Assembly: GCA_012521995.1 (NCBI GenBank)
Contig: JAAYLH010000009.1
Span: forward strand, 54,947-118,946
Reading direction: 5' to 3'
DNA: 64,000 bases
Source: Bacteroidales bacterium
Lineage (GTDB): Bacteria; Bacteroidota; Bacteroidia; Bacteroidales; UBA7960
In this document: in pieces, positions 26,935-55,038 of the stretch
How the letters are laid out: each line of letters opens with the position of its first letter
Numbering within the stretch: position 1 is the stretch's first letter
Notes under the pieces: model-generated
What the model was told of the DNA's origin: nothing
The model's database searches: none
The model's input: only the letters and a program-made list of their open reading frames with translations
Position numbers and translations under genes: made by a program

Positions 26935-26982
26935 GGACTTGGTACGGACTTGGTACGGACTTGGTAGGGAGAAAACCTCCCT
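26935..26982. repeat. Three tandem 11-bp units (GGACTTGGTAC) plus adjacent hairpin
   Basis: GGACTTGGTAC x2 + GGACTTGGTAG, then AGGGAG-aaaac-CTCCCT. Confidence 0.9.
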
Positions 26983-53649: not shown

Positions 53650-54381
53650 TTAATCAGACTTGACGCAGCGTACAGAAAAGCCGAAATCTTCCACGCTGCC
53701 CAGTAAAGGGAAAAGGTAGGTGTTGTAGTCAAGCCGCCTGGCCCAGGTTGTGTAATCCAGGTGGCCTTCTGAATGCCACCAGTAGCCGTGTTTTCTCAAA
53801 TCGGTAAATTCACCTTCCTGGGTCCGCATACCCCCGCCACGAGCCGAGAAACCGGTCTTATTGTCGGCAAATACCAATACCGGATAGGGTGATTCCCAAT
53901 GATCGTATCCTTCTTCCCGCAGGCTGTTCCCGATATAACCTCCCATGCTGATGGCATAATCGACCAGGTAATTGAAATCTTCCTTGGATGGAACACGCCA
54001 GCCCGTGGGGCACAGATTCCCTGAATGCGCTGCTGCCCGGTTGTAGAGCGCTCCGAATACATCTTTGTGCACGTGATTGTTGTCATACCAGCTATAGGCA
54101 GCTCCTGCGCTACGGGCCCATTGCTCATTTTCTGTAATATTTGATAAGGGGGTCCCATCGTTAAAATGGGTAACTTTCAGGTTCTCCTGTATCCAGTATT
54201 GATCACAGATTTTAATTACATTATAGACATTGCCGTCAAAATCAATAACTTCTGTAAGTTCAGGCGCTCCCGGATCTTCCTCGGGCCCGGGCAATTTACT
54301 GTCCTTACAGCCCTCCAAGACCAGTAAAAAGCCTGCGGCCAGAATGAAATAAAGAATTTGATTAAACTTTGCAATTTTCAT
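53650..54381 (-). CDS. FISUMP-domain lipoprotein (paralogue)
   Basis: VIDFDGNVYNVIKICDQYWIQENLKVTHFNDGTPL; YSWYDNNHVHKDVFGALYNRAAA; CPTGWRVPSKEDF. Confidence 0.88.
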   Translation of the reverse strand: MKIAKFNQILYFILAAGFLLVLEGCKDSKLPGPEEDPGAPELTEVIDFDGNVYNVIKICDQYWIQENLKVTHFNDGTPLSNITENEQWARSAGAAYSWYDNNHVHKDVFGALYNRAAAHSGNLCPTGWRVPSKEDFNYLVDYAISMGGYIGNSLREEGYDHWESPYPVLVFADNKTGFSARGGGMRTQEGEFTDLRKHGYWWHSEGHLDYTTWARRLDYNTYLFPLLGSVEDFGFSVRCVKSD

Positions 54382-54685
54382 GATTTAATCTTATTGGTTA
54401 ATAAATGGCCTCTCTGAATCCATTTCCATGCCAAAATCCCTAAGCTTTTTCTTTCCAGCAGGTTAATTTCTGCTCGGTTTTTGTGTTCTTGAATTTCTGT
54501 ACACCAATGAACACAAGGTGTTCCAATTCGGACACGTATGTTACATATGATTTTGTTTGATTCATTTGCAGCGCTCACCATCCGTAGAATTAGTAAAGGG
54601 CTTATCCAGCGCATCCCATAAACCAGGGCCCTTACAAACATTTCTGAATACTCCCAAACCCTTATGGGTTATGGTTAAACTCGGA

Positions 54686-54799
54686 GTTCAGACGTAGTTC
54701 AGACGTAGTTAACACGTAGTTTAGACGTAGTTCAGACGTGCACACACGTTTAACCTACGTGTTAATTACGTATTATTTACGTGTTTTCTACGTGTTAAA
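54686..54799. repeat. Symmetric array: five 11-bp units, CACA, five inverted 11-bp units
   Basis: GTTCAGACGTA x2, GTTAACACGTA, GTTTAGACGTA, GTTCAGACGTG / CACA / CACGTTTAACC, TACGTGTTAAT, TACGTATTATT, TACGTGTTTTC, TACGTGTTAAA. Confidence 0.92.
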
Positions 54800-54918
54800 T
54801 CCAAATCAAAACCAAATATAAAAGACTTCTTAACCCGCTTTGCTGGTGAATTGAAAATGCTTGTTAAGGAAAATGGGTGAGGGAGGGGGGGAGTTTTACA
54901 CGGATGCTGCCGGCAGGT

Positions 54919-54940
54919 CAAAAAAAAGAGGCTGCCTCTT
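54919..54940 (-). terminator. Probable terminator downstream of the tRNA
   Basis: Minus strand AAGAGGCAGCCTCTT followed by TTTTTT. Confidence 0.65.
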
Positions 54941-54964
54941 GTGTTTGAGAAAGCCCCTTTTTAG

Positions 54965-55038
54965 TAGCGGGGACGAGAGTTGAACTCGTGACCTTCGGGT
55001 TATGAATCCGACGCTCTAACCACCTGAGCTACCCCGCC
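54965..55038 (-). tRNA. tRNA-Met (CAT anticodon; elongator Met versus Ile2 not resolved)
   Basis: GGCGGGG acceptor, GCTC..GAGC D-arm, anticodon loop TTCATAA, ACGAG-TTCAACT-CTCGT T-arm, CCCCGCT-A; CCA not encoded. Confidence 0.93.

Follow-up and report, generated by a model that had tools for sequence, protein, structure and literature searches.

A helically phased 11-bp array dispersed through a Bacteroidales genome: a candidate binding site of DUF6266 proteins

Ten contiguous 11-bp units, five in one orientation and five in the other, stand in a non-coding gap of a Bacteroidales chromosome. What recognizes such an array, and is it read as DNA or as RNA? The window, meaning the whole stretch of 64,000 nucleotides that was analysed, belongs to a draft genome of 3.26 Mb in 140 contigs (G000), and the genomes compared here are drafts or MAGs.

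The array and its surroundings

Read directly, the array (54685-54800, 116 bp) places five 11-bp units and five inverted ones on either side of a 6-bp centre. The register was fixed by comparing 42 copies, and the best one gives five AGTTYAGACGT units, the centre GCACAC and five ACGTNTNANNT units. The first-pass annotation had parsed the locus as 114 bp with a 4-nt centre, which is the same array offset by one base. Direct reading and Tandem Repeats Finder both confirm that it is real, the latter reporting period 11 at 54685-54739 (5.0 copies, score 89) and again at 54756-54798 (score 51). The features around it are the following.

54685..54739, plus strand: strong (conserved) arm, five head-to-tail 11-bp units (AGTTCAG-ACGT, AGTTCAG-ACGT, AGTTAAC-ACGT, AGTTTAG-ACGT, AGTTCAG-ACGT)
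54740..54745, no strand: array centre GCACAC, 6 bp
54746..54800, minus strand: weak (looser) arm, five inverted 11-bp units ACGTNTNANNT, with the core retained and the variable positions not
54920..54961, minus strand: intrinsic terminator of the leftward tRNA-Met gene, a hairpin of -15.3 kcal/mol followed by a T-run
54964..55038, minus strand: tRNA-Met (CAT), neighbour of the array
53650..54381, minus strand: FISUMP gene (Fib_succ_major, PF09603), neighbour of the array, its start 303 bp away

The array thus sits in a non-coding gap, as had been stated earlier, and because a terminator separates it from tRNA-Met it lies outside the tRNA transcript. The earlier exclusion of a CRISPR and of a terminator also stands, the array being made of contiguous 11-bp units without a T-run of its own; a CRISPR array is rejected because no unique spacers separate the repeats.

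The array is far beyond chance. A scan of lags 7-20 over 400 kb of G000, composed of 20-kb pieces mostly picked around arrays, returns 27 matches at 11 bp, whereas each other lag yields a single match, a run of N. When up to two mismatches are allowed, the pattern ACGT-N7-ACGT-N6-ACGT-N7-ACGT is matched 27 times in the forward sense versus 3 times by the reversed control.

Dispersed copies, their placement and their conserved core

The first-pass annotation had looked to recurrence in the genome and its relatives, and the array does recur. A DNA search finds dispersed copies by the dozen in G000; 42 arrays were read individually in this genome and 40 in others, and at the window's locus the array persists in two further species (L079 in G001 and L087 in G003). 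The family is also present in three congeneric genomes, G001, G003 and G004. A sequence-only profile built from 22 copies and run on both strands gives 77 matches in G000, 76 in G001, 27 in G003, 30 in G004 and 10 in G033, and none in G002 or the remaining family members. G033 represents another genus of the same family, and its arrays are possibly binning contamination. No lag-11 match occurs in 540 kb from other genera or in 120 kb of G002, and scanning the GTDB collection for the exact core yields only the MAGs KA13 and UBA4814, both Bacteroidales.

Two subtypes can be distinguished, one with AGTTCAG units and a 6-bp centre and one with ACCTTAG/ACTTAAG units and a 7-bp centre. The 6-bp centre alternates purine and pyrimidine (RYRYRY) in 29 of the 44 copies that have it in G000 and G001. 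Unit number changes by whole units: L024 has one extra, and L087 is without two that L079 has.

The copies are placed between genes. With genes called by a simple codon-based script, all 82 arrays lie clear of predicted genes. Convergent gaps hold 17 of 41 arrays in G000, versus 4 of the 64 other gaps of at least 200 bp (p=2.3e-5), while divergent gaps hold 3/41 versus 19/64 (p=0.0065). An intrinsic terminator precedes the array on 56 of the 93 sides where a gene 3' end faces it and on 9 of the 61 where a 5' end does (p=1.8e-8), its T-run typically 100-160 bp away. These terminators between 3'-facing genes and arrays indicate that most copies probably lie outside mature transcripts. The neighbouring genes show no functional bias beyond DUF6266. 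Replication polarity was considered and set aside, since in these draft genomes the orientation of the strong arm does not agree robustly with GC skew (14/20 with the skew of the whole region, about half with that of third codon positions).

Within the unit, both arms keep one core (A1 94%, T4 94%, A6 98%, A8 95%, C9 99%, G10 96%, T11 87%), and positions 2, 3, 5 and 7 are free. At orthologous loci in other species, identified by flank matches, the core ANNTNANACGT is 0.86-0.96 identical in most pairs; the other array positions are at 0.25-0.75 and the flanks at 0.35-0.8, often 0.35-0.6. For the window's array in G001, the core is at 0.89, the other positions at 0.53 and the two flanks at 0.35 and 0.49. 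The core bases of dispersed copies are, to judge from these comparisons, under purifying selection.

Selection could in principle act on pairing of the arms, in a transcribed RNA hairpin, a terminator or a cruciform, and the strand does fold well (-48.8 kcal/mol, z=-6.4). However, arm pairing at the free positions is no greater within copies than between them in three array sets (0.554/0.555, 0.458/0.465 and 0.550/0.567), the core is conserved separately in each arm, the arrays sit beyond terminators, and no Rfam match is obtained; this explanation is very improbable. The cruciform reading of the first-pass annotation is likewise not supported, as changes at the variable positions of one arm are not compensated in the opposing arm. 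Another of its proposals, a cooperative protein-binding array, is well supported by the strict 11-bp phase, by the same 11-mer core in both arms and by the conservation of that core at orthologous sites. Its suggestion of a nucleoid or segregation site is a possible role, on which strand orientation in these draft genomes bears neither way. A core that is kept while the rest drifts, arms that do not covary and an intergenic placement beyond terminators together mark the element, as far as sequence can tell, as a DNA-level site for a protein and not an RNA hairpin, a CRISPR or a cruciform.

The link to DUF6266 and the spread of the array

Three of the arrays in G000 lie 63 bp from genes of the DUF6266 family. 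In a family search over 12 genomes, the presence of DUF6266 agrees without exception with that of arrays, five genomes having both and seven neither (p=0.0013). Each intact DUF6266 gene of the genus has a private 11-bp-phased array just upstream of its promoter, which is Bacteroidota-like (TTTG...TATATTTG). The units of these arrays vary: they are AACCGTAGTTT, TTAATACGGAG, AACCGGTCTTT, GGTTCAGGCGG-like, CCGTGTTTTAA-like, TACGGTCGARA or, as in the window array, of the ACGT type. The weakest array, with two TACCAAGTCCG-like units, belongs to a broken gene (G004:C22). At a lag-11 threshold of 17/22, 13 of the 17 upstream regions in the genus pass, at most one passes at any other lag, and the dyad exceeds that of shuffled sequences in 16/17. 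Because relatives of the array stand upstream of every intact DUF6266 gene, the window array is probably a binding site of DUF6266 proteins, of a type that has spread between genes genome-wide.

The unit also follows the protein clade. Unit distance tracks DUF6266 protein identity (Mantel r=-0.57, 0/5000 permutations), in a test for which unit strings were read by eye and which leaves in the relatedness of genes that are not independent. Moreover, three array types coexist in one genome, each matching one DUF6266 group. Two of them form further dispersed families, as follows.

26935..26970, plus strand (window): second 11-bp array family, 3 x GGACTTGGTAC (= TACCAAGTCCG on the other strand), found by Tandem Repeats Finder
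C93:7440, C133, C91:5452, C111:44681, C2:60623 and C51 (G000): third-family loci L166-L171 and L227

The TACCAAGTCCG unit is found at seven places in G000, the one in the window included, and the first-pass guess of related GACKTRGTWC-like units holds. The third family, with unit TACGGTCGARA/TACGGTCATGA and inverted arms, occupies six places in G000, and at one of these a DUF6266 gene lies downstream.

In a sample of 299 genomes across the phylum, DUF6266 (PF19781) occurs in 22. Repeats phased at 10 or 11 bp are frequent upstream of these genes and are exemplified by six CTAACTATATG units in L261, by ATCAAAGACGT in L263 and by AAACTGACGG in L258. Among the first 26 loci, 11 pass the phase threshold versus 4 of 341 control upstream regions, whose genes were taken from other loci and genomes; among 12 loci fetched later, 3 pass (p=3e-4). 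When pooled at lags 10/11 with a threshold of 16/22, the counts are 17/38 versus 6/341 (p=1.5e-14), and no excess is seen in the same pooled comparison at lags 8/9, 12/13 or 14/15. About half of the DUF6266 genes across the phylum have no clear phased repeat at the threshold used. Outside the genus the repeats are mostly direct, without an inverted arm. The TACCAAGTCCG array is also found upstream of DUF6266 genes in distant Bacteroidota, and in the three genomes tested (G271, G156 and G363) it is single-copy, at DUF6266; dispersal is therefore not a general property of the family. The array class is thus general, and its genome-wide spread special to this genus. In a different family of the phylum (G368), the DUF6266 genes at L293 and L294 have ACGTA-containing 11-bp repeats upstream, which resemble the ACGT type.

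The protein itself has no recognised DNA-binding fold and no detectable solved relative. It matches only its own Pfam model and no transposase family; its C-terminal half bears a weak likeness to a fibronectin type III domain (E=0.05), and none of the papers searched names DUF6266. A phage-like record of 8038 bp (OP209177.1, L284) encodes a rolling-circle Rep of the G2P/ORF2 type together with two to three DUF6266-like ORFs, and no phased repeat is seen upstream of its ORF2. These DUF6266-like ORFs hint at a mobile origin.

The array could instead be an operator or an architectural site for another protein, a ribbon-helix-helix or small winged-helix protein of the ParR, BldC or Xis kind, with DUF6266 genes merely among its targets. 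ParR of plasmid R1 indeed binds 11-bp direct repeats (PMC9426499), and BldC-like filaments take about one DNA turn per protomer (PMC11963761). However, the unit differs with each DUF6266 clade, which fits self-recognition better than a single outside regulator; units this diverse would be hard for one regulator to match, and the arrays have no linked gene for such a regulator. A different binder is thus improbable.

The preferred explanation, which we regard as fairly likely, is operator-like: the window holds a chromosomal copy of an array that serves a DUF6266-family protein, DUF6266 being the presumed binder of its own array. Since there is one unit per helical turn, identical protein faces would be aligned on one side of the DNA. 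Assembly along an arm would be cooperative and head to tail, and the two arms would face each other across the short centre. The array abuts the promoter, so DUF6266 probably represses its own gene, by occupancy of the promoter-proximal region. The ACGT-type array of one DUF6266 clade has been copied to about 40 intergenic sites, where it probably carries that protein too and may serve as a roadblock, an insulator or a nucleoid anchor.

How the copies arose is partly recorded in their surroundings. Groups of copies have common flanks 100-190 bp long and about 75% identical, and recent copies in G003, G004 and G033 combine two kinds of left flank with two of right flank in mosaic fashion; these common diverged and mosaic flanks mean that copies spread or convert. 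In a subset of copies the common flanks end in terminator hairpins, the ends not being consistent; draft genomes and divergence hide duplications. At L014, L017, L022, L028 and L072 similar GAGGCCGTCTC...GAGACGGCCTC terminators close the common flanks at either end, which gives the impression that about 450 bp, both terminators included, were copied as one unit.

Some arrays of G003 and G004 (L084, L088, L091) adjoin a XerC/D-like tyrosine recombinase. At two loci in G003 the 5' end of the recombinase gene and the adjoining 294 bp are near-identical and the gene bodies differ. A dif-like recombinase site (11-6-11) is suggested by the geometry and by this neighbour; it was rejected, the gene being absent from G000 and G001 and the full-length copy beside the array being found in G003 only.

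The main rival reading takes the copies as a selfish repeat, with DUF6266 and its array as the autonomous element and the scattered arrays as non-autonomous passengers, comparable to REPINs and RAYT, which would spread by transposition or gene conversion with no need of a host function. The number of copies (about 42), the three array types in G000 that each match a DUF6266 group, the common and mosaic flanks and the unbiased function of neighbouring genes are all consistent with it. Yet selfish copies would not need a core kept at orthologous sites amid near-random flanks. Nor are consistent terminal repeats or target duplications seen among the copies of these draft, diverged genomes, and the protein resembles no transposase. 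A selfish origin is consequently unlikely, though less so than an outside binder.

More broadly, the operator-like reading can be extended tentatively: DUF6266 proteins could possibly be Bacteroidota-wide, sequence-specific coaters of phased arrays, each paralogue with its own 11-bp code, and one array would have been seeded about 40 times as a selected insulator or anchor system in at least one genus. An unstudied family is tied in this way to a precise, testable DNA code, and the paralogues paired with different units in one genome form a series of specificities supplied by nature. Should DUF6266 bind these arrays, it would count as a new DNA-binding family, one that might be programmed through its units. 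Should the dispersed copies be insulators or anchors, a chromosome-organising system would be added in Bacteroidota; if they are selfish, they would show a second way, independent of RAYT, for a domesticated gene to co-evolve with a repeat family.

Comparison with known systems

A REP is a short hairpin associated with a Y1 HUH transposase, and each REPIN class has its own single gene, with which it apparently co-evolves (PMC3116915). The arrays share with REPIN/RAYT their dispersed intergenic inverted elements, several classes per genome and a class-specific partner gene, here DUF6266. They differ in their ten helically phased 11-bp units, in a conservation of the DNA site without arm covariation, so that the hairpin upkeep by pairing that marks REPINs is not seen, and in the linked gene itself. 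RAYT/REP is rejected as the identity of the system, as Y1_Tnp counts do not track the arrays (1 in G000, 1 in G001, 3 in the array-free G002 and 0 in G033, which has arrays).

In parC of plasmid R1, ten phased 11-bp direct repeats flank the parA promoter, and the repeat sequence differs between families (PMC9426499 and references there). Phased repeats next to the promoter of a linked gene, of about 10-20 bp in ParMRC sites and of 11 bp here, are common to both systems. Unlike in parC, two groups of five are inverted 6-7 bp apart, and the copies are chromosomal and dispersed. No gene for an actin-like ATPase or a ribbon-helix-helix adaptor stands beside the window array, whose neighbours are FISUMP, tRNA-Met and a DMT-type transporter, and DUF6266, unlike ParR, does not count among the recognised ribbon-helix-helix families.

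BldC, Xis and RdfS are small winged-helix proteins that form head-to-tail filaments on direct repeats, with approximately one protomer per helical turn (PMC5859096, PMC11963761). They provide a model for cooperative assembly of this kind, but DUF6266 has no sequence link to them and those systems lack genome-wide inverted arrays.

Two further repeat families were compared. BrickBuilt of Porphyromonas gingivalis is a MITE with a minisatellite, having 23-nt internal repeats, terminal inverted repeats and no linked gene family reported (PMC4596501). Like the present array, it is an intergenic repeat of Bacteroidales that contains tandem units and often lies close to terminators, whereas here the units are of 11 bp and DUF6266 is linked. 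The TAACTGA heptamers are abundant intergenic direct repeats, some in Bacteroidetes, and in Beggiatoaceae most of them immediately precede start codons (PMC4679880); their 7-bp units differ from the window array in sequence and in period. Since the tests that define REPIN-RAYT and parC fail and BldC and RdfS have no sequence link to DUF6266, the array and its gene are provisionally called a new kind of system, in which binding of the array by DUF6266 is the candidate step.
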